Below are positions 5,860 through 38,937 of a DNA stretch of 42,843 nt, one piece after another (the first letter of the stretch is position 1; each line of letters starts with the position of its first letter). Source of the stretch: Candidatus Roizmanbacteria bacterium GW2011_GWC1_37_12. GTDB lineage: Bacteria > Patescibacteriota > Microgenomatia > UBA1406 > GWC2-37-13. The stretch covers positions 1 through 42,843 of the forward strand of contig LBST01000010.1 of NCBI GenBank assembly GCA_000991135.1, given 5' to 3'. The notes under the pieces were generated by a model. It did no database searches. It saw only the letters and a list, made by a program, of their open reading frames with translations, and was not told where the DNA came from. The translations under genes were made by a program, and so were the position numbers.

Positions 5860-6915
5860 TCAGCGGATAATTAGTTTAGAAAGCTCTTCTTTGTGATTGG
5901 CTAGCTTTATCAGGCCGTTAATTGTCGCGTACTGATAATCTTTCGAAGTTATTACATCAATTTTTATTTCATCCCGGAAAAATTTATCCAGTCCCCCAAT
6001 TCTTGAAAGTCCTCCTGTCAATATTATTCCCCTTTTCATGACCTCGTCGACAATTTCCGGAGGAGACGATTCGATTAATTCTTTGATCGCATCTGTAATT
6101 TGATTAAAATTGGTAAGAAGCGCTTCTTTTATGTCCGAGCTTTTTACTCTTACTGACTTAGGAAGCCCAGTTTCCAGAGACTTACCACGGATAGTAACTG
6201 TCTTTTCACTATTTTCAAAATTTAAGAGATCTGTTTTTAATCCTTCACAGGTCGCCTCGCCCAAAATAACCCCGTATTTGAGATAAACATAGTTGTAGAT
6301 AAGCCGATTCATGTTGTCACCGGCGTTTTTCAGGGTTTTTTGAGAGATTATCCCGCCCGATCCGATGATCGAAAGTTCGATCAAGCCCCCTCCCAAATCT
6401 GCGACGAGCGTCGGTTGATGAGAAAAAATATTTAGGTTGCAGCCGGCAGCTGTTGCCAAAGGCTTTTCGATTAGGAAAACTTGAGATAGGCCCGCTTTAT
6501 ACAAGACTTCCTGGGCGGCTTTTTGTTCGATTTCGGTCGCGATCGTTGGAACTATTGTCACGCCGACCATAACCGGTTTTATCATTTTGTTCGTTAGATA
6601 CAGATAGATCGACCTCTCCAAGTACTTGTTAATCAGTGAGACTTCGGCGTCAAAATCAGAAATCACTCCGGCGATGACCGGCCGAACGATCTTGATAAAG
6701 TCGGGCGTTTTACCGATTATTGATTTTGCCTCGTTTCCAAAAAATAAATATTGATTAATCCGACTGTTAAATCCTAAAAAAGTTGGCTCGCGAAGTATGA
6801 TACCCTTGTCTTTGATGGCAATTTTTGTCACCGATGTTCCCAAATCAAAATAGACTTCAAAGTTAGAAAAAAAAGGCAGTTTGATTTTTGACAGCCAGCT
6901 AGTAAAATTAATCAT
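5860..6915 (-). CDS. mreB: MreB-type actin-like protein
   Basis: This protein of 351 residues is an actin-fold ATPase of the MreB family, which guides cell-wall synthesis along the membrane. The phosphate 1 motif is YFDLGTSVTKIAIKDKG (family IDLGTANTLIYxKGxG) at about 20-37. Phosphate 2 is TLVADLGGGLIELSII, and the adenosine motif is GIILTGGLSRIGGLDKF. The length matches MreB (about 345). The ATG at 6915 is chosen because earlier codons would run antisense into the ligase gene, whose ATG at 6917 is divergent with a single base between the two codons. Neighbours on the wall theme are the ligase-like gene and, farther away, the PBP. Confidence 0.9.
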   Translation of the reverse strand: MINFTSWLSKIKLPFFSNFEVYFDLGTSVTKIAIKDKGIILREPTFLGFNSRINQYLFFGNEAKSIIGKTPDFIKIVRPVIAGVISDFDAEVSLINKYLERSIYLYLTNKMIKPVMVGVTIVPTIATEIEQKAAQEVLYKAGLSQVFLIEKPLATAAGCNLNIFSHQPTLVADLGGGLIELSIIGSGGIISQKTLKNAGDNMNRLIYNYVYLKYGVILGEATCEGLKTDLLNFENSEKTVTIRGKSLETGLPKSVRVKSSDIKEALLTNFNQITDAIKELIESSPPEIVDEVMKRGIILTGGLSRIGGLDKFFRDEIKIDVITSKDYQYATINGLIKLANHKEELSKLIIR

Positions 6916-6916
6916 T

Positions 6917-9076
6917 ATGATCGATAAATTTCTTAAGTTTTTATACGGAAGCCTTTTTTTCTTAACTCCATTAATATTTGCGCCCTTAACTTCCGAGCTA
7001 TTCGAATTCAATAAAATAATATTTATTTATGTCATTACTATTCTCGTTGGATTTTTTTGGCTTCTTAAGATGATTTTAGCAAAAAAAACTTATTTTAAAA
7101 GAACCCCCTTAGACACCCCGATATTATTGTTTCTTATTAGTCAAATAGCTTCGTCTATTTTTTCTATTGATCGCCACGTTTCTTTTTTTGGTTACTACGG
7201 CAGGTTTAACGGTGGACTTTTATCAACAATTAGTTATATCATACTTTACTACGGATTTGTATCTAACTCTTTTAATATAATTTCGTTTTTAAAAACTTCT
7301 CTTTGGTCATCAGTCTTGGTGATGATCTACGGTCTGCCCGGAAAATTAGGGCACGATCTGACTTGTTTTTTGGTGAGCGCCGGCAGGACTTTTGACAACA
7401 GCTGTTGGTCAAGAGAAACCAATGTCTTTGACCCAGCTAATCGGTCTTTTTCTACTTTGGGTCAGCCAAATTGGCTGGGCGCCTATTTGGCGATAAACTT
7501 TTTTATCGGAATCTATTTTTATGTTTTTTACTTGCGTCATTCTGGTAAGCGACCGAGTAATTACGAGGGAGCGCATCCAGAATCTCAAAGAGGATTCTGG
7601 ACAAGCCAGAATGACTGGAAAGCTTTTGTTTATCTTTTTGTCAACTTCTCTTTTATTTTATTTACGAGATCGCGTTCAGCCTTGGCCGCTGTTTCAATCG
7701 GACTGATATTATTTATTAGCTATTATCTATTATTTATTAAATTAAATACTAAAAAATTAATTATTACTTTACTATTTATTACTGTTATTCCAGCGATTTT
7801 ATTTAAAACGGGAATTGATAAGTTTGATAAATTTTTAAAATTTCCAACCTCCATCTTCCAATCTCCTAACCCGCTTCCAGCTTCCAAAAACCAACCTCCA
7901 TCTTCTAACAATTCAGGTGTCACAGAATCCCTAGATATCAGAAAAATCGTCTGGAAAGGCGCTGTCGATCTCGGATTAAAATACCCGCTATTTGGGACAG
8001 GAGTCGAGACTTTCGCTTATAGCTATTATTTTGTCCGTCCGGTCGAGCACAATCTGACGAGCGAGTGGGACTTTATTTATAACAAGGCGCACAATGAGTT
8101 TTTGAACTATCTAGCTACTACAGGATTCATAGGATTAGGAGCTTATTTGTTATTAATAATTTCTTTTTTTTATTATTTAATTAAAGAATTACGAATTAAA
8201 AATTACGAATTAAAAAAGGAAAACAAAAAATCCGTAATCCGTAATCCGCAATCATCAAATCAAATAATTCTATTTATGTGTTTATTAATCTCTTATTTAA
8301 CAATTCTTATTACGAACTTTTTCGGCTTTTCCACTACGACGATCAATCTATTTTTCTTTTTAATTCCGGCATTTACCATGTCATTGCGAGGAGGAGACGA
8401 AGTCGACGACGAAGCAATCTCTTCAAAGAGACATACAAACTATCAATACTTTTCCATTTTTATTATTTCCGGTTTTACGATCTATCTACTATTAGCTACC
8501 TTTTCATATTGGTTTGCCGATACCCAATATGCTTTGGGTCTTAATTATCTAAAGCCGGGAATTTCTGATTTTCAAAAAGCCGCCGGCTATTTTGAAAGTG
8601 CTTTGAAGGTAAGAGTGGAACCTGTCTATGAAGACAAATTTTCTTCGAGTCTATCTTATTTGGCCGCCATAGCTTTTTATCAAAAGCAGACTGATTTAGC
8701 CAATCAAATAATTAAAATGAGCGACTATTACAATAAAAAAAGTCTAAATGCTTCCTCGAAAAATATTTTCTACTGGAAAACCAGGGCAAAAAATCAATAT
8801 CTTTTTTATCAGGTAACTTTAGATAATAAAGATTTAGAAGAAGGTATTAATGTTTTGCTGACCGGGCAGAAACTGGCGCCGACTGACCCGAAGATCCCTT
8901 ATAGTTTGGCAGTTTATTACCAGCTGATTTACAATCAGGCTAAAGAACAGTCAATTAAGGAAAACGCAAAACAGGCATCTCTTTTGGAAATTGACAAAGC
9001 TATTGCACTAAAAAAAGATTTTCAAGACGCTCTTATTCTTAAAGATGACCTTCTTAAGAAATACGGCTTGCTTTAA
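6917..9076 (+). CDS. O-antigen ligase / Wzy-like membrane protein with TPR-like tail
   Basis: This 719-residue protein has about ten hydrophobic helices starting at residue 5. Ligase-family landmarks are STLGQPNWLGAYLAINFF, ARSRSAL-like TRSRSALAAVSIGL, and the long-loop motif NKAHNEFLNYLATTGFIGLG. The family joins lipid-linked polysaccharide to an acceptor or polymerises it at the outer face of the membrane. In this bacterium the acceptor is unknown. The last 170 residues look like TPR helices. Residues 207-233 (RHSGKRPSNYEG to SQND), about 425-446 (IKNYELKK to RNPQS) and 489-503 (SLRGGDEVDDEAISS) come from dispersed repeats. A TTGATT-16-TAAAAT promoter lies inside mreB (6881-6908). The stop shares bases with the converging pilin stop. 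Confidence 0.85.
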   Translation: MIDKFLKFLYGSLFFLTPLIFAPLTSELFEFNKIIFIYVITILVGFFWLLKMILAKKTYFKRTPLDTPILLFLISQIASSIFSIDRHVSFFGYYGRFNGGLLSTISYIILYYGFVSNSFNIISFLKTSLWSSVLVMIYGLPGKLGHDLTCFLVSAGRTFDNSCWSRETNVFDPANRSFSTLGQPNWLGAYLAINFFIGIYFYVFYLRHSGKRPSNYEGAHPESQRGFWTSQNDWKAFVYLFVNFSFILFTRSRSALAAVSIGLILFISYYLLFIKLNTKKLIITLLFITVIPAILFKTGIDKFDKFLKFPTSIFQSPNPLPASKNQPPSSNNSGVTESLDIRKIVWKGAVDLGLKYPLFGTGVETFAYSYYFVRPVEHNLTSEWDFIYNKAHNEFLNYLATTGFIGLGAYLLLIISFFYYLIKELRIKNYELKKENKKSVIRNPQSSNQIILFMCLLISYLTILITNFFGFSTTTINLFFFLIPAFTMSLRGGDEVDDEAISSKRHTNYQYFSIFIISGFTIYLLLATFSYWFADTQYALGLNYLKPGISDFQKAAGYFESALKVRVEPVYEDKFSSSLSYLAAIAFYQKQTDLANQIIKMSDYYNKKSLNASSKNIFYWKTRAKNQYLFYQVTLDNKDLEEGINVLLTGQKLAPTDPKIPYSLAVYYQLIYNQAKEQSIKENAKQASLLEIDKAIALKKDFQDALILKDDLLKKYGLL
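7535..7615. repeat. ATTCTGG/CCAGAAT repeat inserted in frame in the ligase gene
   Basis: These 81 bases (27 codons) begin CGTCATTCTGGTAAGC, contain GCGCATCCAGAATC, and end GATTCTGGACAAGCCAGAAT plus GAC. The blocks match the intergenic copy at 4084-4168. It encodes RHSGKRPS to TSQND at residues 207-233, in a loop between membrane helices. Confidence 0.85.
7843..7904. repeat. Short repeat CCAACCTCCATCTT, two copies inside the ligase gene
   Basis: CCAACCTCCATCTT occurs at 7843-7856 and 7891-7904, separated by CTTCCAGCTTCC-like sequence. The encoded stretch is Pro/Ser/Asn-rich (SPNPLPASKNQPPSSNNSG) and falls in the extracytoplasmic loop region, as if low-complexity repeat DNA had been absorbed into the frame. 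Confidence 0.5.
8188..8253. repeat. TTACGAATTA / ATCCGTAATC repeat inside the ligase gene
   Basis: ATTACGAATTAAAAATTACGAATTA-type sequence is followed by TCCGTAATCCGTAATCCGCAATC. It encodes RIKNYELKK and VIRNPQS. A related pair (TTACGAATTACGAA and ATCCGTGATCTGCAATCCGT on the minus strand) lies inside recG at 23315-23375 and encodes NYELRI and KIRDLQSVI. Confidence 0.6.
8380..8432. repeat. GTCATTGCGAGG repeat inside the ligase gene
   Basis: It starts GTCATTGCGAGGAGGAGACG and continues through GACGACGAAGCAATCTCTTC. From memory, this type (GTCATTGCGAGGAG to GAAGCAATCT) is a dispersed repeat in many bacterial genomes. Only one copy lies in this window. It encodes SLRGGDEVDDEAISSK in the loop before the last membrane helix. 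Confidence 0.5.
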
Positions 9077-16770: not shown

Positions 16771-16799
16771 CTTCCACCTCGGAGGTGGATGGAGGCTAA
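16771..16799 (+). repeat. Palindromic element family A, copy 1 (RAYT flank)
   Basis: The 29-base unit is CTTCCACCTCGGAGGTGGAT plus GGAGGCTAA. TCCACCT/AGGTGGA forms a 7-bp hairpin, followed by the tail GGAGGCTAA. It is identical to 17549-17577 and lies on the other side of the transposase. Related copies are 32683-32711 (inside pheT) and 38445-38473 (inside mtaB), all in the same orientation. Confidence 0.9.
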
Positions 16800-16802
16800 G
16801 AA

Positions 16803-17465
16803 CTACTCTAAAATCAGTTTTTTTATCATTTTTAGTTTTCTTTGATAATTAATTTGATTATCGACAAACTTTTTATAAAGTTTTGGACTTTTTATAGAAA
16901 TTTCGGTTAAATACTTTTTCAAAATATTTTTGTTCATATAATCGTTATAAGAAGAATATTCCCAGTCCTCAGGCTTATTTACTAGATAATTTGTGACTGG
17001 ATTTAAATGGATATAGCGTGAAACATGAAGGAGTTGTTCGTTGCTCTGTATTAATACGCACTTGAATTCTGATTGCCATAAAGGACCTCTTCGACTTGAT
17101 TTAAGGTCAAAATAACGAGTATAGCTATTTTCAACCGTTCCGATATATTTCGAAAGGAAATTGCTTCTCAGTAATTTTACTAAAAGATGATAATGATCTG
17201 GCATTATGCAATATCCCAAGAACTTAATCAAACAATTAGATTTTTCCGAAATTAAACTCTGAAAGGTATATTTTTTGTATCGTAAAGCATTAGAAAATTT
17301 TCTTTCAGATTTAACATTATTATAAAAATCTAACGTCTCAATAAATCTATTTATATTAGAAGGATAAGTAAAAATTCCAAAATTAGAAATACTTTTATTA
17401 CAAATATGATAAATTTCACTTTCTAAGAATTTTTCTTTTCTATACATTGTTCTATTTTGGGTCAT
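16803..17465 (-). CDS. REP-associated tyrosine transposase (RAYT, Y1 HUH type)
   Basis: The 220 residues contain the RAYT pattern. The metal-binding HUH-like motif is CIMPDHYHLLV (about residues 88-98). The region NSYTRYFDLKSSRRGPLWQSEFKCVLI holds the usual YxxYFN-like and LWQxRFK blocks. HVSRYIHLNPV and EDWEYSSY are the family's C-terminal signatures. Known members cleave and join single-stranded palindromic REP sequences. Identical 29-base palindromic elements flank it (16771-16799, 17549-17577), so this is a REPtron-like unit. Start at 17465 is tentative; a Met at 17447 is possible. The AT-rich codon use is consistent with mobility. Confidence 0.88.
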   Translation of the reverse strand: MTQNRTMYRKEKFLESEIYHICNKSISNFGIFTYPSNINRFIETLDFYNNVKSERKFSNALRYKKYTFQSLISEKSNCLIKFLGYCIMPDHYHLLVKLLRSNFLSKYIGTVENSYTRYFDLKSSRRGPLWQSEFKCVLIQSNEQLLHVSRYIHLNPVTNYLVNKPEDWEYSSYNDYMNKNILKKYLTEISIKSPKLYKKFVDNQINYQRKLKMIKKLILE

Positions 17466-17548
17466 AAATATTAGTTTGTCAGTAGGTTATATCAAACAAA
17501 AATTCAAGAAAGACTATTAAGTAAGTCTAAATTTATTGAAATACCATT

Positions 17549-17577
17549 CTTCCACCTCGGAGGTGGATGGAGGCTAA
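17549..17577 (+). repeat. Palindromic element family A, copy 2 (RAYT flank)
   Basis: Identical over 29 bases to 16771-16799, in direct orientation. Its final GGCTAA supplies the stop codon (TAG on the minus strand, 17574-17576) of the delta-prime-like gene, so insertion of the unit probably reshaped that gene's end. Confidence 0.9.
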
Positions 17578-18179
17578 AAGTAGAGTTTTTTAATAAAAAT
17601 CAACATATGATCGATTGTTAATTGAGGATTCAGATTGTTATTTTCGAGCAAGCTTTTTAGTTTGACGGCTTCTTTTAAGATTAGTGGTGATTTTTTGTCT
17701 GTCATTAATCTTTCTCTAAAAAAAGCAATAACATCCTCAAGTGTTATCTGATCGGAGGACAACAATTTTAAATTGTTATCCTTAATAAGCTTTGTTAGTG
17801 CTTCTTTTGCTTGGGAGCCAAGTGGTAAGGATTTTTTTTTATCGAGATAGACGATTTTAGTCCGTGATCTGATAGTCGGGATCAATTTTTGTTCGTTGTC
17901 GGTCGTCAAGACAAACAAGACATTTCTCGGCGGTTCCTCAAGGATTTTAAGAATTGAGTTTTGGGCTTCAAGCGAGGAAGCGTGAAAATTTTCTAGGCAA
18001 TAAAGTCGGACATTTTTGTTAAAAATATTTGTTTCTTTTTTTAAATTTTTTATTTCTCCGATACAATATTCCTTTCCTTCAGGTCTGACTTGAAAAAAAT
18101 AGCCATTTTTGTCAAGAATAGTTTTTAAATAATTTTTTATTTTTTTTGAATCATCGGAGATTAAAAGCAATGGAATCAT
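17574..18179 (-). CDS. holB: DNA polymerase III delta-prime-like protein without Walker A
   Basis: The 201 residues carry the clamp-loader motif SSLEAQNSILKILEEPPRNVLFVLTT (about 68-93) and SRTKIVYL (sensor region). This is characteristic of delta-prime/gamma subunits, which open the sliding clamp. The N-terminus begins MIPLLLISDDSKKIKNYLK, with no GxxGxGKT P-loop, and the zinc module is missing. The length is well below the usual 300 or more, so it is an ATP-independent or degenerate clamp-loader part. TAAAAT ends six bases before the ATG. The stop codon comes from a family A repeat. Confidence 0.75.
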   Translation of the reverse strand: MIPLLLISDDSKKIKNYLKTILDKNGYFFQVRPEGKEYCIGEIKNLKKETNIFNKNVRLYCLENFHASSLEAQNSILKILEEPPRNVLFVLTTDNEQKLIPTIRSRTKIVYLDKKKSLPLGSQAKEALTKLIKDNNLKLLSSDQITLEDVIAFFRERLMTDKKSPLILKEAVKLKSLLENNNLNPQLTIDHMLIFIKKLYF

Positions 18180-22338: not shown

Positions 22339-24420
22339 TTAATCCTTAGTTATCTTTCCTTTTCTATACTTCTCCACTCTTTTTTTCAACTCCCCAAACT
22401 TTTCAATCTCATAATGTTTTTCAAAATATTCAACTGCTTTCTTTGTCCTCTCAATTAGTTGATAATCAGATAGTGAGGCAATTTTCAGATCCAAATATCC
22501 ATGTTGTCTCATGCCATAGATATCGCCCGGACCCCTGATTTTTAAATCTTCTTCAGCCAACTTATTGCCGTCGTTTGTCTTGGTGAACATCCCTAATCGT
22601 CCTAATATCCCTGAATCTTCTTTCTCTGTGAATAGAAAACAGTAGGACTGTTTATCGCTCCTTCCCACTCGACCTCTAAGCTGATGAATCTGGGCAAGAC
22701 CGAATCGTTCAGCCCCCTCAATAAGCATAACTGTTGCATTGGGAATATCTACGCCGACTTCAACTACAGGTGTAGTCACTAAAATGTCGGTCCTTTGGTT
22801 TTTGAAATCGTTCATAATCTTTTCTTTTTCTTTTGACTTCATTTTTCCATGAAGAAGAGCGAGTTTAAATCCGGAAAATATTGTTTTTAGGTTCTCGAAT
22901 TCTTTTTTTGCCGCCTTGACTGATTTCATAGTTTCGATTTCTGATTCTTCGATAAAAGGGCAAACAATAAAAATTTGAAATTTGAAATTTGAAATTTGAA
23001 ATTTAATCCAATCGTAACAAGACGGTCTTTTGTGTTTGGGTACGAGATAGGTTTTAACGAGTAATCGACCGTAAGGCATTTCATCAATCAGTGACAAATC
23101 AAGTTCGCCGTATAAAGTCAAAGCGACGGTACGGGGGATCGGTGTCGCCGTCATAGTTAATAGATGTGGATTGAGTCCTTTGTTTTTTAACTCGGCTCTC
23201 TGTGAGACGCCAAAACGATGCTGTTCATCGATAATTACTAAACCTACTTTTTTAAATCGTTTATTTAATAATGCATGAGTTCCTATAATTAAATCAGATT
23301 TATTAATTACGGATTGCAGATCACGGATTTTATTTGCACCTGCTATTTTCGTAATTCGTAATTCATAATTTTTAAATAATTTAATTAATGTGTTATAGTG
23401 TTGTTGTGCCAATATTTCCGTTGGTGCCATCATAAGCGATTGATAACCATTCAGATAACTCAAATAACAGGCTAAAGCGGCAACAACCGTCTTTCCGCTC
23501 CCGACCTCACCTTGTAAAAATCTATTCATCGGGACGCTCCTTAAAAGGTCCGTCCTTATCTCGCTCCAGACGCGATTTTGAGCATTAGTCAATCTGAACG
23601 GAAGATTATCAATAAAATTCTGTAAGGACAATTCATGAATTGTCCCTACGGTAAATTTATTCCCTACTTTTTCTTTTTGCCACTCTTTTTTGACTAAATG
23701 CGACGATAATTGAATAGTAAATAATTCATCAAACGCCAATCTTTCTCTTGCTTTCTGTGCCGCATCCTTTGATTCGGGAAAATGAATCTGTCGATAAGCC
23801 GTTTGTTCTTCTATTAAATTATTTAAAGAAATTATCTCTTTTGGGAGCATTTCATCAAGCCGATCGGCAACCTCCGAGGTTGCGGAGGCAAAAACTAGCG
23901 ATACTTTTTCTCTTATCGTTCTTGATGATAATCCCCTTTTCTCTGGATATATAGGGATGATTCTTCCTACGTGTTTAAATGTTATTCTGGCTTGCTTACG
24001 CAAGCAAGCTTGTCCAGAATCTGTCAGTTCATATTCTTTTGGTTTCATTGATAATTTTCTTCCGTATTGTTCGATAACTCCGGCAACACTTAGGTTTAGT
24101 CCTTTTTTAAATAGTCTTAGTAGATATGGTTGGTTGTAGAATCCAAGTTCAATTTCTCCGGTTTCGTCCTGAAGTTTAAAGACCTGAATTCGTAAACCGG
24201 TTTGAGTGACCTGATATTTTCCTTCTGTAATTTCGCCAATAACTGTGACTGTTTCTCCGGGTTGAGCATCTTTAATTTTAGAAATCAATGAATAATCTTC
24301 ATAGCGAAAAGGAAAATAGTTAAGAAGATCGAAGTAAGTATTAATTCCAAGAGACTTGAACTTTCTAATAGTTATAGAACTAGTCTTGGGAAGAGTCTCG
24401 ATATTTGAAAATTGAATCAT
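22339..24420 (-). CDS. recG: RecG ATP-dependent DNA helicase with repeat-derived insertions
   Basis: The 693 residues match RecG: an N-terminal wedge/OB region (SLISKIKDAQPGETVTVIGEI), Walker A FLQGEVGSGKTVVAALA, motif Ia MMAPTEILAQQHY, DEQH-like IIDEQHRFGVSQRA, TMTATPIPRTVALTLYG, VEVGVDIPNATVMLIEGAERFGLAQIHQLRGRVGR, and the RecG C-terminal SGILGRLGMFTKTNDGNKLAEEDLKIRGPGDIYGMRQHG. RecG reverses stalled forks. Five short stretches derive from dispersed repeats: about 134-146 (DSGQACLRKQARI), 179-187 (SATSEVADR), 258-266 (VGTIHELSL), about 349-369 (NYELRITK to QSVINK) and about 473-483 (KFQISNFKFQI). All motifs remain intact, so it is probably functional. Confidence 0.95.
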   Translation of the reverse strand: MIQFSNIETLPKTSSITIRKFKSLGINTYFDLLNYFPFRYEDYSLISKIKDAQPGETVTVIGEITEGKYQVTQTGLRIQVFKLQDETGEIELGFYNQPYLLRLFKKGLNLSVAGVIEQYGRKLSMKPKEYELTDSGQACLRKQARITFKHVGRIIPIYPEKRGLSSRTIREKVSLVFASATSEVADRLDEMLPKEIISLNNLIEEQTAYRQIHFPESKDAAQKARERLAFDELFTIQLSSHLVKKEWQKEKVGNKFTVGTIHELSLQNFIDNLPFRLTNAQNRVWSEIRTDLLRSVPMNRFLQGEVGSGKTVVAALACYLSYLNGYQSLMMAPTEILAQQHYNTLIKLFKNYELRITKIAGANKIRDLQSVINKSDLIIGTHALLNKRFKKVGLVIIDEQHRFGVSQRAELKNKGLNPHLLTMTATPIPRTVALTLYGELDLSLIDEMPYGRLLVKTYLVPKHKRPSCYDWIKFQISNFKFQIFIVCPFIEESEIETMKSVKAAKKEFENLKTIFSGFKLALLHGKMKSKEKEKIMNDFKNQRTDILVTTPVVEVGVDIPNATVMLIEGAERFGLAQIHQLRGRVGRSDKQSYCFLFTEKEDSGILGRLGMFTKTNDGNKLAEEDLKIRGPGDIYGMRQHGYLDLKIASLSDYQLIERTKKAVEYFEKHYEIEKFGELKKRVEKYRKGKITKD
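22971..23004. repeat. Tandem heptamer AAATTTG inside recG
   Basis: Four full copies and one partial copy of AAATTTG lie in frame and encode KFQISNFKFQI (minus strand). A similar TTTTGAAT/CAATTTT stretch at 31669-31694 lies inside pheT (QNSKLKIEEH), and relatives fill intergenic gaps such as 41200-41278. Confidence 0.75.
23315..23375. repeat. TTACGAATTACGAA / CAATCCGTAAT repeat inside recG
   Basis: Plus-strand ATTACGGATTGCAGATCACG and CGTAATTCGTAATTCATAAT bracket a short linker. The minus strand encodes NYELRITK to IRDLQSVI. The ligase gene holds the related pair at 8188-8253. Confidence 0.6.
23622..23649. repeat. Palindromic element family D, copy in recG
   Basis: GGACAATTCATGAATTGTCC (23626-23645) is a perfect 20-bp palindrome with GTAA/CTAC ends. 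It encodes VGTIHELSL (residues 258-266). The homologous 28-base copy in pheT at 31385-31412 has a C-G to T-A paired change. Confidence 0.85.
23859..23886. repeat. Palindromic element family A', copy in recG
   Basis: This 28-base unit has the core GCAACCTCCGAGGTTGC and the tail GATCGGC. It is the exact reverse complement of 37545-37572 in mtaB. The minus strand encodes SATSEVADR (residues 179-187). The core shares ACCTCsGAGGT with family A. Confidence 0.9.
23984..24020. repeat. ATTCTGG/CCAGAAT palindrome inside recG
   Basis: ATTCTGGCTTGCTTACG and CAAGCAAGCTTGTCCAGAAT form a 37-base imperfect hairpin. It is a short relative of the repeats at 4084-4168 and 7535-7615. It encodes DSGQACLRKQARI on the minus strand. 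Confidence 0.75.
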
Positions 24421-25279: not shown

Positions 25280-25341
25280 AGGGACTGTCCTTAATAGGGA
25301 CAGGTCCTTAATAGGGACAGTCCCTAAAAGGTATGTCCTTA
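25280..25341. repeat. GGGACAGTCC palindromes, 3' flank of RAYT 2
   Basis: Three units in a row contain AGGGACTGTCCTTAAT, AGGGACAGGTCCTTAAT and AGGGACAGTCCCTAAAAGG. The last TCCTTAAT overlaps the transposase stop (25339-25341). The other flank at 26050-26085 has the same hairpin GGGACAGTCCC. Confidence 0.85.
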
Positions 25342-26043
25342 ATCTATAATGAGTTTTTCATAAACATCAGTTTCCCGTTCCGATTTCTCTTTATATCCTT
25401 CGACAAAACTTTGATAAGAGGAAAATCCGAGATCTTGATCTTTTTTGAAATAAGAAAGGATGTAATCTTTGCTTAACCATTTTGGTCCGTTTCCTTTGAC
25501 ATATAATTTATAGCTCGACCAGGGATAATCAAATAAATTTTTATTTTCTTTAAGTAACTCTTTGGGATTAAGGTGAATATAACGACTTAAATGTAATAAA
25601 TATTCTTCTTTTTTTATTAGTATAGCTTTATATCGACCTTGAAATAAATGACCAACTCTCATGTATTTTCTGTTGAAATATTGGGAATATTTTGTAAACA
25701 AACTCTTTATGAATAATTTCATATCGTTTTTATCAGTTTGTCTTAACACAAAATGAAAATGGTTAGGCATAAATACATAATTAAGAATTTCTATTCTTTC
25801 ATAAAAATTATCTAAAAATAATAATTTTGCAATTCTTTTATTTTTTTCTTCTTCAGATAGTAAATTGTTCATTTTTATCCTCTCTATTAATTCCTGTTTA
25901 GGAAGTAAATATAAGTCTATATAAGATAAAAGAGCACGATAGTCTTGTTCGTCAAAAAAGATTGGTAATTTATTAACGCCGCGGTTATAAACGTGATAAA
26001 AACCTTTCTCTACATAGATTTTAAGAGCATTTTTTCCAGGCAT
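25339..26043 (-). CDS. REP-associated tyrosine transposase (RAYT), second copy
   Basis: The 234 residues carry GFYHVYNRGVNKLPIFFDEQDYRALL at the N-terminus, the HUH-like FMPNHFHFVLRQTD, the catalytic-tyrosine region YSQYFNRKYMRVGHLFQGRYKAILI and LLHLSRYIHLNPKELLKE with DYPWSSYKLY. All are standard RAYT motifs. It differs strongly from the copy at 16803-17465 and sits between a different palindrome, GGGACAGTCCC (25280-25341 and 26050-26085). So the two transposases probably serve different repeat families. Confidence 0.92.
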   Translation of the reverse strand: MPGKNALKIYVEKGFYHVYNRGVNKLPIFFDEQDYRALLSYIDLYLLPKQELIERIKMNNLLSEEEKNKRIAKLLFLDNFYERIEILNYVFMPNHFHFVLRQTDKNDMKLFIKSLFTKYSQYFNRKYMRVGHLFQGRYKAILIKKEEYLLHLSRYIHLNPKELLKENKNLFDYPWSSYKLYVKGNGPKWLSKDYILSYFKKDQDLGFSSYQSFVEGYKEKSERETDVYEKLIID

Positions 26044-26049
26044 AATTTA

Positions 26050-26085
26050 AAGGGACAGTCCCTAATAAAGACTGTCCTATTAAAA
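26050..26085. repeat. GGGACAGTCCC palindrome, 5' flank of RAYT 2
   Basis: AAGGGACAGTCCCTAATAAA plus GACTGTCCTATTAAAA forms two opposed REP-like hairpins immediately before the transposase start. Confidence 0.85.
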
Positions 26086-31073: not shown

Positions 31074-32960
31074 TTATATTCTATTGAGTTCTTCTTTTGC
31101 GTCTTGTTCAGTGATGTTTTTTTCGGATGATGAATAATAGAAACGTAATGTCAGCTTGTTTTCGAAAAGAGTGACAACTTCGATTTTTTGCAATAGTTTC
31201 GACCCAAATGCCTTTTTCCGAATAACCTCATAGGTTAGTTGAGGTGAAAGATTAAAAGTTTTATCTAGTTTGATAACAGCATAGGGGTTAGTCGGCTGAT
31301 ATTTAGAGAACTGTCTATATCTGTCAATCAACCATTGAAGATCGATTTCGATTATAAAGACGCCGTCACGTTCAATAATCTCTGGTAGGGATAATTCATG
31401 AATTATCTCTACGTTTAATTCCCTATATAACGCCTCGATAATTCCTTTCAAATCAAAGTAATCAGTATTTACAGCGACTCCTAACTTATAAGTTTCTTCT
31501 GGAAGCTCATTCTTTCTAGGTAGATAAACCTTAGCAATTTCAAAGAATTTCAAAACATCCTTTTTCCCTGTATTATCATCAACATTTTTATAAAGAGAAG
31601 GTAATAATGTTTGTCTCATATATTCGATTTCTTCAGAAATCGTACTAGATAGTTTTAGATGTTCTTCAATCTTCAATTTTGAATTTTGAATCATTTCCTT
31701 CGATATCATCGAGTAGTTGATGACTTCGTTGAGTCCCAGATGCTTCAGAAAATATTTAACTTTTGAGTTTATGAAAAATAGTTTTTCAAATTCTTTTGGC
31801 TGCTCTACAATAGCAGGAGGCTGTAAGTTATTTGGAAGCTTGTGATAGCCGTAGATTCTTGCCACTTCTTCGACAAGGTCTTCTGGAATAGAAATATCGT
31901 TACTTCTCCACGAAGGAATTTTTAGTTGTACCATCTTTGCGCGGTCGCTGTCGAGATGGTATATTTCAAATCCCAGATTCTTTAAAACATTATCTATATC
32001 TTCTTTCTCAATTTTTACTCCAATAATTTTTTCAAAAATTTCGTAATCTGTCTCCACGGCTTTATATTTACTTTTTTCAGAATTTATATCATACAAAGAA
32101 CTGATAACTTTTCCATTTGCAATTTTTTCGTAAAGTTCGATTCCCTTGTCAAAAGCCATCCTGGCCGCTTTGGGGTCAGGATTTTTTTCATTGATGGAAG
32201 CGGCTATGGTTCTTATCCCTAATTTCATTGAAGTTCTTCTGATTGCCTTCGGATCGTTGGTCTCGATCCAAAAGACGATTTTTTTGGTCTCGTCAGTGAC
32301 AACGCTATTTTCCAATCCCATTATTCCTGGTAAATCAATTATTCTTCCTGTACCGTCGTCAAAAACTACATCTCGATTATCAAGTTGATATTCTTTTTTG
32401 TCCAAGGTAACGATCTTTTCACCTTTTTTTGCATAACGAATAAGGATTTTTCCAGTTTTGATTCGATCAAAATCAAATACATGAGCCGGGTGGCCTGTTT
32501 CAAGCATGACATAATTTGTCACATCTATTAGGTTGTTAAGCGCTCTGATTCCGCAGTTTTGCAGTCTTTCTTTTATATATGTAGGCGATTTTCCTGTTTT
32601 TACATCCATAACAACTGCCAGTTTCCTTGGGCAAAGATTATCATCATCAATAATTTTTAATTCCGTCAATCCCCTTCCACCCCTTCCACCTCGGAGGTGT
32701 AAGGAGGCTAAATTCTTTTTTAATTTAGCTTTTTTGTCGAAACGAGGTAGGATTGCCGCAGCTTCTCTTGCAATTCCAACAACCGAAGCATAGTCAATTC
32801 TATTTGAAATTACTTCAATATCGTAGACCCAGTCGTTCTTAACTTTAGTAACTGATTCGATTGATGGACCGCATAAGGATAGATATTCGCTAATTTCTTT
32901 AGGAGTAGCATCCGTATCTAAATATTCAAGTAGCCAATTGTGAGTTATTTTTATATTCAT
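31074..32960 (-). CDS. pheT: Phenylalanyl-tRNA synthetase beta chain, short form
   Basis: The 628 residues are far below the usual 790 or so. The N-terminus (MNIKITHNWLLEYLDTDATPKEISEYLSLCGPSIESVTKV) runs straight into NDWVYDIEVISNRIDYASVVGIAREAAAI, so the EMAP-type OB-fold (B2 domain) between them is missing. The B3/B4 region (RALNNLIDVTNYVMLETGHPAHVFDFD), B5 (GYHKLPNNLQPP) and a C-terminal FDX-ACB anticodon-binding domain remain. Repeat-derived inserts are NLASLHLRGGRGGRG (residues 83-97) and VEIIHELSL (517-525). It pairs with PheS to charge tRNA-Phe. It follows pheS by one base. Confidence 0.92.
   Translation of the reverse strand: MNIKITHNWLLEYLDTDATPKEISEYLSLCGPSIESVTKVKNDWVYDIEVISNRIDYASVVGIAREAAAILPRFDKKAKLKKNLASLHLRGGRGGRGLTELKIIDDDNLCPRKLAVVMDVKTGKSPTYIKERLQNCGIRALNNLIDVTNYVMLETGHPAHVFDFDRIKTGKILIRYAKKGEKIVTLDKKEYQLDNRDVVFDDGTGRIIDLPGIMGLENSVVTDETKKIVFWIETNDPKAIRRTSMKLGIRTIAASINEKNPDPKAARMAFDKGIELYEKIANGKVISSLYDINSEKSKYKAVETDYEIFEKIIGVKIEKEDIDNVLKNLGFEIYHLDSDRAKMVQLKIPSWRSNDISIPEDLVEEVARIYGYHKLPNNLQPPAIVEQPKEFEKLFFINSKVKYFLKHLGLNEVINYSMISKEMIQNSKLKIEEHLKLSSTISEEIEYMRQTLLPSLYKNVDDNTGKKDVLKFFEIAKVYLPRKNELPEETYKLGVAVNTDYFDLKGIIEALYRELNVEIIHELSLPEIIERDGVFIIEIDLQWLIDRYRQFSKYQPTNPYAVIKLDKTFNLSPQLTYEVIRKKAFGSKLLQKIEVVTLFENKLTLRFYYSSSEKNITEQDAKEELNRI
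31385..31412. repeat. Palindromic element family D, copy in pheT
   Basis: The 28-base unit centres on GATAATTCATGAATTATC. It is homologous to recG 23622-23649; the paired change C-G to T-A keeps the palindrome. The minus strand encodes VEIIHELSL (517-525), matching recG VGTIHELSL in frame. Confidence 0.85.
32683..32711 (+). repeat. Palindromic element family A, copy 3 (inside pheT)
   Basis: The unit CTTCCACCTCGGAGGTGTAA plus GGAGGCTAA differs from the RAYT-flanking copies at two bases. A partial duplicate CCCCTTCCAC precedes it (32671-32680). It encodes NLASLHLRGG in the minus frame of pheT, at the seam between the N-terminal region and B3. Confidence 0.88.
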
Positions 32961-37474: not shown

Positions 37475-38827
37475 TTAAACTATTTTACCAAACAATCGAC
37501 CCTTTTTAAATTCTATTATTTTGACGTTTTTTATCTTGCCGGTTTCCGCAACCTCGGAGGTTGCCGATCGGCCTTTGTCAGCAATCCAAATAGGGAGTTG
37601 ATTGTCCAATAAAGCTTCACGAAAACCTTCTTCTGACCTCTGAAGAAACAAAGTCAAAGACACTCTGTTAATATTTTTTTGCTTGAATTGAAAGTACTTC
37701 TTTTTGCCAAGCTTAATCAATGCTGCCGCACGTTTAGTTTTTTCTGCGACGCTAGGCTCATTTAGCCTTTTTTCCATATAGTCGGCGGCTGTTTTTGTTC
37801 GTTTTGAAAATCTAAATACGTGAAACTTATCTATAGGAGATTCTTTTAGGAAATTGTATGTGTCCTGAAAGTCTTTGTCCGTTTCATCAAGGAAACCAAC
37901 GATGACATCGGTTGCGATCAGGGCTAAAGGATTAATTTTATGTAATTTGTGCAATTTTTCCATCATTTCTTCCCGTGTGTAGCCACGCTTCATTAAGTTT
38001 AATATTTTATTGGACCCTGATTGGATTGGAACATGAAAAAAATTAACTAAACGTTTCAAGGGTAAAATATTTTTATAATAGTTAATAAATTCATTATTGA
38101 TACTCCAGGGATGAATTGACCCGAAGCTGATCCTTGGAACGGTTGAATCAGTCAGAGTCTGTTGAATCAGTTGAATCAGCGTTTCCCCGGTATCGTATCC
38201 AAACGCTTCTGTATTAATTGCCGTGAAAATTACCTCTTTGACTTCTCTACCTAAATTCTTCTTGTCCTCCGAAGCCTTGGCGTAGGAGGAAATTCTTGAT
38301 AATATACTTTTAATTCTTTCTGACTTAGGCATTCCACGAAGATAAGGGACTATGCAAAAAGAGCAATACCTTTGACAGCCGTCTTGAATCTTGACCATAA
38401 GCCTCCCAGAATCGATAAATTTATTTTGATTTTGAAAATTGCCACTTCCACCTCCGAGGTGGAAGGAGGCTAAATTTTCTATATTTAAGCGTTTTTTAAT
38501 TAAATCAACCAAATATTCCTTATTGACATTATCGATAATAATGTCAATAGGAAGGTCTTTGTAGAGGTTATTTTTTAGCCAATATGTGGCACTACAGCCT
38601 GTTACGACTATTTTAGCTTCTGGTAACTTCTTTTTGGTTTGGTAGATCAACTGTCGAGCTTCCCTTTCGGCTTTATTGGTGACAGAACAGCTATTGATGA
38701 TAAAAATATCGGGTTTATTTTTATCAAATCTAAAGCCGTTTAGGCTCATTTTACAATCGATTTCTTCCTTTTCAGCCTCATTTACCCGGCATCCGAAGCT
38801 GTAACTAAAGAAACTCATTTTTTTCAC
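37475..38827 (-). CDS. mtaB: MiaB/MtaB-like tRNA methylthiotransferase (radical SAM)
   Basis: The 450 residues have an N-terminal UPF0004 domain with SYSFGCRVNEAEKEEI, INSCSVTNKAEREARQL and VTGCSATYW (cluster cysteines), the radical SAM motif CQRYCSFCIVPYLRG (CxxxCxxC), then TDVIVGFLDETDKDFQDT and the C-terminal SEVAEKTKR-like part. GCRVNEAE suggests the MtaB branch, which modifies t6A37 in tRNA; MiaB or RimO activity is less likely. GTG at 38827 is chosen because TATAAT ends six bases before it. Repeat-derived inserts: NLASFHLGGG (118-127), SSYAKASED (180-188), RSATSEVAE (about 420-428). Confidence 0.88.
   Translation of the reverse strand: MKKMSFFSYSFGCRVNEAEKEEIDCKMSLNGFRFDKNKPDIFIINSCSVTNKAEREARQLIYQTKKKLPEAKIVVTGCSATYWLKNNLYKDLPIDIIIDNVNKEYLVDLIKKRLNIENLASFHLGGGSGNFQNQNKFIDSGRLMVKIQDGCQRYCSFCIVPYLRGMPKSERIKSILSRISSYAKASEDKKNLGREVKEVIFTAINTEAFGYDTGETLIQLIQQTLTDSTVPRISFGSIHPWSINNEFINYYKNILPLKRLVNFFHVPIQSGSNKILNLMKRGYTREEMMEKLHKLHKINPLALIATDVIVGFLDETDKDFQDTYNFLKESPIDKFHVFRFSKRTKTAADYMEKRLNEPSVAEKTKRAAALIKLGKKKYFQFKQKNINRVSLTLFLQRSEEGFREALLDNQLPIWIADKGRSATSEVAETGKIKNVKIIEFKKGRLFGKIV
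37545..37572. repeat. Palindromic element family A', copy in mtaB
   Basis: TCCGCAACCTCGGAGGTTGC plus CGATCGGC is the exact reverse complement of 23859-23886 in recG. In the gene frame it encodes GRSATSEVAE. The recG copy is inserted the other way round, yet SATSEVA is the same. Confidence 0.9.
38265..38290. repeat. Palindrome with TCCTCC/GGAGGA arms inside mtaB
   Basis: TCCTCCGAAGCC and GGCGTAGGAGGA are complementary except for a short central mismatch. It encodes SSYAKASED in the minus frame. From memory, peptides like SYAKASED recur in other proteins of such genomes. Confidence 0.65.
38445..38473 (+). repeat. Palindromic element family A, copy 4 (inside mtaB)
   Basis: CTTCCACCTCCGAGGTGGAA plus GGAGGCTAA differs from the RAYT flanks at two bases. 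It encodes NLASFHLGGG (118-127). Same orientation as the other three copies. Confidence 0.88.
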
Positions 38828-38833
38828 GAAACT

Positions 38834-38839
38834 ATTATA
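38834..38839 (-). promoter_or_regulatory. -10 box TATAAT, leaderless start of mtaB
   Basis: TATAAT, AGTTTC and GTG (38827) follow directly on the minus strand. Spacing six selects the GTG start over the downstream ATG. Confidence 0.55.
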
Positions 38840-38937
38840 AAACAATTATTTAATTTCTGATTTCTAATTACAAATTAATTAGTAATTTTTAATCTGTAAT
38901 CCTTTAATTATTAATTATAGGGTTTTTCTAAAACTTA

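Follow-up and report, generated by a model that had tools for sequence, protein, structure and literature searches.

The window (the whole 42,843-nucleotide stretch of DNA analysed here) contains a gene for a REP-associated transposase (RAYT) between two identical 29-bp palindromes, and close copies of the same palindrome lie in frame inside two conserved protein-coding genes, pheT and mtaB. How did a short palindrome come to lie inside such genes, and is the transposase next to two of its copies responsible?

RAYT-1 and the palindromes of the window

The RAYT locus consists of the following features.

16771-16799, plus strand: A-type palindrome, 3' flank of RAYT-1 (exact copy; hairpin fold)
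16803-17465, minus strand: RAYT-1 gene (220 aa), REP-associated HUH/Y1 transposase (PF01797, 4er8 match, alignment, synteny)
17549-17577, plus strand: A-type palindrome, 5' flank of RAYT-1, oriented like the other flank (exact copy)
17574-18179, minus strand: holB-like gene, stop codon within the palindrome (ORF list, synteny)

The 29-mer, CTTCCACCTCGGAGGTGGATGGAGGCTAA, is exact at both flanks and lies on the plus strand in each case, i.e., the two copies are direct and not inverted. A scan of the window located it with two mismatches each at 32683-32711 (in pheT) and 38445-38473 (in mtaB), and the chance expectation for matches this good is 1.4e-10 (window, both strands). The arrangement described in an earlier note on this DNA, a RAYT between two identical 29-bp elements with two-mismatch copies in pheT and mtaB, was borne out with exact coordinates. 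The element is longer than 29 bp, as its copies agree over ~33 bases (GCCCCTTCCACCTCSGAGGTGGAWGGAGGCTAA), which fold into a bulged hairpin with a z-score of about -3.7 to -4.0 relative to shuffled sequences. The 5' copy supplies the TAG stop codon of the holB-like gene (17574-17576). RAYT-1 matches PF01797 at 6e-9, over the family cut-off, and the HUH motif PDHYH is conserved in the alignment. Its best solved relative is 4er8, the E. coli RAYT (TnpAREP) on a REP hairpin (phmmer 2.6e-4), which is also the top match by fold (Foldseek 1.1e-5, predicted model with pLDDT 90). The gene is flanked on both sides by palindromes dispersed through the genome, the arrangement by which a RAYT is recognized. 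The locus reads pilin-RAYT-holB-gspE, and RAYT-1 is syntenic in the relative G022; the gene is thus fixed there, and the palindromes are the dispersing part.

Three genes of the window carry palindromes of this family in frame.

22339-24420, minus strand: recG (sequence)
23859-23886, minus strand: B-type palindrome in recG, in frame, ASATSEVADR (sequence)
31074-32960, minus strand: pheT, phenylalanyl-tRNA synthetase beta chain (orthologues across the family)
32683-32711, minus strand: A-type palindrome in pheT, in frame, NLASLHLRGG (two-mismatch copy)
37475-38845, minus strand: mtaB-like gene with two palindromes of two subfamilies (sequence)
37545-37572, minus strand: B-type palindrome (RAYT-2 family) near the mtaB C-terminus, close to the 3' end of the gene, GRSATSEVAE (site also filled in G028)
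38445-38473, minus strand: A-type palindrome in the mtaB linker, in frame, NLASFHLGGG (two-mismatch copy)

The translations of the A-type copies in pheT and mtaB agree with those given earlier, and the mtaB copy falls in the linker between the N-terminal and radical-SAM domains. The two copies of the sister subfamily (B), in recG and at the mtaB C-terminus, were absent from the earlier list. In the comparison of pheT and mtaB orthologues proposed in the earlier note, pheT orthologues do not show these residues as ancestral sequence, and the mtaB linker holds other palindromes in other species. Over the palindrome region, pheT exceeds its nearest orthologues by only 2 residues, and one of these, that of G022, seems to hold a decayed copy in this position; on these grounds a clean 10-residue insertion was not upheld.

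The window holds further palindromes and repeat-like peptides. Another RAYT (25339-26043) is bracketed at 25291-26065 by TAGGGACTGTCCCTA palindromes of a family of its own, TTAGGGACTGTCCCTA, unrelated in sequence to A and B. The palindrome GTARGGAYAATTCATGAATTRTCYCTAC lies in frame in recG (23622-23649, IHELSL) and near the 3' end of pheT (31385-31412, IIHELSL), and at the latter place G022 has CHSREGGNPD, resembling a peptide encoded by a different repeat. Repeat-like peptides also occur in frame in mtaB near 38290 (SSYAKASEDK, also in G026) and in an O-antigen-ligase-like gene at 6881-9076 (RHSGKRPSNYEGAHPESQRGFWTSQNDW and SLRGGDEVDDEAISSKRH). The recG loop that carries the B palindrome has other repeat-like peptides in relatives (loci L170, L183 and L186), AHHDNSVTLSLTKG and VGDDPRVVPVGHDGP, which suggests that this loop may be a shared docking loop for unrelated palindrome families.

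Palindromes across the genome and their match to the local RAYT

The core ACCTCSGAGGT occurs 37 times in the genome of ~0.99 Mb and not at all in the reversed control; the 29-mer that the earlier note proposed to look for elsewhere in the genome is indeed present. The copies align into three groups, A, B, and C. Group A (~12 copies) is tied to RAYT-1, and group B (~14 copies) flanks RAYT-2 on contig C1, a paralogue 56% identical to RAYT-1. Each RAYT has its own subfamily as direct-orientation flanks, A and B together making at least two RAYT-linked subfamilies. Group C comprises inverted core pairs 30-36 bp apart, about four such dimers in this genome, plus a few single cores outside both A and B. 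Six Y1 transposase genes are present in the genome. From the alignment of 12 A and 14 B copies, the A consensus carries TTAGCCTCC and the B consensus a GCC...GGC foot, and neither has a GTAG or CGTC tetranucleotide at the hairpin end. Some 20-50 bases to the 5' side of the B palindromes, the copies share a weak AT-rich pattern (for example, window 23810-23858) that ends in TTTAGA ~20 bases from the palindrome and may be an outer part of the element.

For the count of intragenic copies, a copy was taken as intragenic when it lay within an ORF of 100 aa or more, and copies beside a RAYT were excluded. On this basis, 16 of the 25 single copies in this genome and 39 of the 65 in six genomes are intragenic, and by number the palindrome family is mostly intragenic. 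Intergenic space is small in such genomes, and the density of copies per base is probably still higher there. The intragenic hosts in this genome include pheT, mtaB (twice), recG, glmS, rdgB, yidC, murF-like, Xaa-Pro peptidase, yfiH-like, rmlD-like and other genes, most of them with Pfam or solved-structure support. Essential genes are among the hosts both here (pheT, mtaB, recG, glmS, mreB, murF, recJ, yidC) and in relatives (TyrRS, LeuRS, Def, Era, UvrA, MiaA), supporting the earlier views that this is a dispersed palindrome family with a visible transposase and that its insertion is tolerated inside essential proteins. The further claim that only one reading frame survives was wrong: four of the six frames of the A 29-mer are open, with a stop in two only, all six frames of the B element are open, and family members in this genome use all three phases (TSEV, HLRG/NLRG and PPRR). 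The effect on the host protein varies. In MreB and the Xaa-Pro peptidase, the copy adds or substitutes residues that homologues lack. In RdgB, the palindrome leaves the length unchanged relative to all orthologues, and some of the LKG/LRG it encodes looks native; the unchanged length speaks for replacement or overprinting rather than simple insertion. The yfiH and rmlD copies align to solved homologues without clear length change. As judged from these alignments, some copies (RdgB, yfiH, rmlD) may represent overprinting or chance.

Most RAYT homologues that we parsed in the family have a matched palindrome on both sides, mostly in direct orientation, with arms that differ by species and a common layout, ACC-N5-GGT. 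To relate the single copies to the RAYTs, the 12+12 arm bases of each were set against the RAYT flanks from every one of the six genomes. The flank from the copy's own genome was the best match for 29 of the 39 intragenic copies, while 3 tied and 7 failed, and when the genome labels were permuted, the true labelling alone of 720 reached the observed mean of 16.0 (average 10.2, next best 15.4). The mtaB loci of G000, G020, G026, G028, and G046 each fit the element of their own RAYT better than does any of 29 other mtaB loci, and those of G013, G022, G029, and G015 are among the best four for theirs. When whole orthologous loci were compared, mtaB showed an own-genome excess, and rdgB, recG, and pheT showed no general one. 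From these results, we consider it very likely that the palindromes form a mobile family linked to the RAYTs.

Orthologous sites and inverted dimers

When the proteins are aligned, the palindromes of separate species coincide to the residue at several sites: the mtaB linker, the mtaB C-terminal loop, RdgB, RecJ, YidC, TyrRS, AroB, a PMT-like protein, and an unnamed one. In one further protein they lie within a few residues of each other. Among orthologous proteins carrying the core, there are about ten sites of such coincidence, mostly in the same phase, against ~0.1 roughly estimated for random placement. In seven orthologous pairs, the palindrome arms are 8-58% identical and the flanks 54-86%.

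TyrRS gives the fullest series. The distance from SHHM to KMSK is 25 residues in many orthologues without a palindrome and 33 or 35 in those with one. The palindromes differ, in an unchanged register, among TyrRS sequences 84-93% identical to the query (G029/G033, G016, G024, G025, and G028), with yet another in the more distant G056; in G029, G016, and G024 the TyrRS palindrome resembles those beside the RAYT of the respective genome. The filled sequences have the flanking residues SAIQRTIER in common and are not monophyletic in a tree from which the insert region was omitted. Because this tree is weakly resolved, one insertion followed by swaps and repeated insertion look alike there. The nearest relatives are ~70-80% identical in most proteins, and no empty/filled pair of near-identical strains was found among them. 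In the G056 TyrRS, from a distant genus, the DNA just 3' of the palindrome, AGCGCTATTCAGAGGACAATTGAGAG, is common to the main filled group, which hints that a short tract may have been exchanged along with the palindrome. Taken across the orthologous sites, in-place turnover of the palindromes is probable. A published account of same-codon turnover in step with the local RAYT was not found in the literature searched.

A second module, the inverted core pairs, is present in several genomes of the family, and a sequence scan placed the following dimers in the genome studied here.

contig C1, 51259: inverted dimer
contig C3, 37040-37521: inverted dimers

The start-to-start spacing is a multiple of three (30, 36, 39, 42, 45, or 48) in 20 of 21 dimers and 34 in the remaining one. 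All 15 dimers that were read in context are in phase 0 and encode TSEV-spacer-TSEV, one of the 15 in a doubtful short ORF, although five of the six frames of the dimer unit are open. Their hosts, assigned by sequence and in some cases with Pfam or structure support, are RecJ (two), MreB, Era, UvrA, a ClpC-like protein, YidC, MiaA, and LeuRS. RecJ of G029 has partly decayed dimers (e.g., TSAV...TAEV) at about the same two places as G000. We found no RAYT whose flanks match the dimers, and the flanks of the own genome were the best match in only 3 of 14 dimers. A RAYT as the mover of the inverted dimers was rejected on this difference, and the dimers were also rejected as a class-wide feature, being present in only 4 of 372 genomes.

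Known systems and alternative explanations

The elements are filed under RAYT/REP. Like REPtrons, they combine an HUH/Y1 fold nearest TnpAREP with cognate palindromes that flank the gene, arms that co-vary with the RAYT, and intragenic copies. Published RAYTs have their flanking REPs in inverted orientation (Nunvar 2010, PMC2817692), unlike the direct flanks of RAYT-1, RAYT-2, and most matched-flank RAYTs of this family. REPs inside genes, including repair and tRNA-synthetase genes, have been described for GTAG REPs, and in two Xanthomonas species recB carries unlike REPs at roughly the same position (Di Nocera et al. 2013, PMC3733652). The present elements differ from the GTAG and CGTC superfamilies in lacking either tag, from the predominantly extragenic REPs in the intragenic position of most single copies, and from the usual REP numbers of over 100 per genome in their ~12 A copies, ~14 B copies, and 4 dimers in 0.99 Mb. 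Further departures from known RAYT/REP systems are the same-codon turnover matched to the local RAYT in several genes and the Microgenomates host; the literature searched gave nothing relevant on such elements in CPR/Patescibacteria. The dimers resemble REPINs as inverted palindromes 30-48 bp apart, but they differ from the RAYT flanks and lie in frame in coding ORFs with a spacing that is a multiple of three. IS200/IS605 elements, which are target-specific and excise precisely, belong to the same transposase superfamily and have hairpin ends, but RAYT-1 is syntenic in a relative with no jump seen, and the palindromes alone are dispersed. The likeness to Rickettsia palindromic elements drawn in the earlier note holds for behaviour, i.e., short palindromes in frame inside conserved proteins of a reduced genome, and not for membership; no sequence relation is claimed, and an element-flanked RAYT is present here. 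To our knowledge, Rickettsia palindromic elements have no assigned transposase.

The explanation we favour, and hold to be fairly probable as a whole, is that the 29-mer is a REP-like palindrome cognate to RAYT-1, spread by the RAYT, with old copies replaced in place by the current family. RAYT-1, a chromosomally fixed HUH/Y1 transposase, would recognize the palindrome as a single-stranded hairpin and spread copies through the genome, perhaps by cutting and rejoining such hairpins where DNA is exposed; in vitro, the E. coli RAYT both binds REP hairpins and cleaves them (PMC8266576). The recognition step draws on that biochemistry and on the matching of arms. Intragenic copies would survive only where frame and fold allow, and when the RAYT/palindrome pair changes, permissive sites would be vacated and refilled, or converted, with the current family taking over the positions of the old palindromes. 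The novelty of this account lies in the in-place turnover, whose mechanism we infer from the orthologous sites. That the RAYT itself catalyses the turnover there is possible, at slightly below an even chance. More tentatively, RAYTs may themselves overwrite the palindromes residing in essential genes with the new cognate one, keeping register and frame, when a lineage changes its RAYT/palindrome pair; permissive loops would then be long-lived docking sites for successive families.

The same sites could be filled with nothing swapped, if the RAYT of each species inserted anew at the same permissive, perhaps sequence-specific, target. This agrees with the positions of the sites in variable-length loops and linkers (the mtaB linker, the mtaB C-terminal loop, TyrRS, the recG loop), with the scatter of the filled TyrRS sequences outside a single clade, and with the target specificity and precise excision of IS200/IS605 (PMC8266576). 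However, we found no common target motif, and both the coincidence at about ten sites, mostly in the same phase, and the common SAIQRTIER flanks are more simply explained by inheritance; we regard repeated insertion as rather doubtful. Concerted evolution independent of the RAYT, by gene conversion or template switching at hairpins, would make the RAYT flanks just two more copies. It would account for a common core with differing arms, and similarity within a genome needs no RAYT activity, but the conversion tracts would have to be of an unusual kind, ~30 bp long and delimited by the ends of the element, and the single copies follow the RAYT flank type while the dimers, in some of the same genomes, do not (3/14). 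This explanation seems unlikely.

The other two explanations concern the encoded residues. A role of the palindromes as mRNA-regulating hairpins or useful added peptides might be read from the dimers, always in one phase with in-frame spacing (TSEV...TSEV), although this phase bias is also expected if a hydrophilic loop is simply best tolerated. The host proteins are unrelated, many copies are intergenic, and the elements decay at orthologous sites, as in the G029 RecJ, which makes retention for such a role improbable. It is more improbable still that the residues are ancestral protein sequence and the palindromes coincidences of coding. The RdgB, YfiH, and RmlD copies, aligned to solved homologues without clear length change, fit that idea, and it is possible for single copies. 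For most copies it is contradicted by the 37 cores against none in the control, by the species-specific arms, and by the residues that the pheT, TyrRS, MreB, and Xaa-Pro peptidase copies add or replace and homologues lack.

The movement of protein-coding palindromes has been an open question ever since the first description of Rickettsia palindromic elements, for want of an enzyme linked to them. Here, palindromes inside essential genes bear the signature of a RAYT of the same genome, and a given codon is occupied by different palindromes in related species; this puts the enzyme, its substrates, and the sites before and after within reach of direct test. Short selfish DNA may, by this possible route, keep adding and rewriting peptide loops in the core proteins of reduced genomes.
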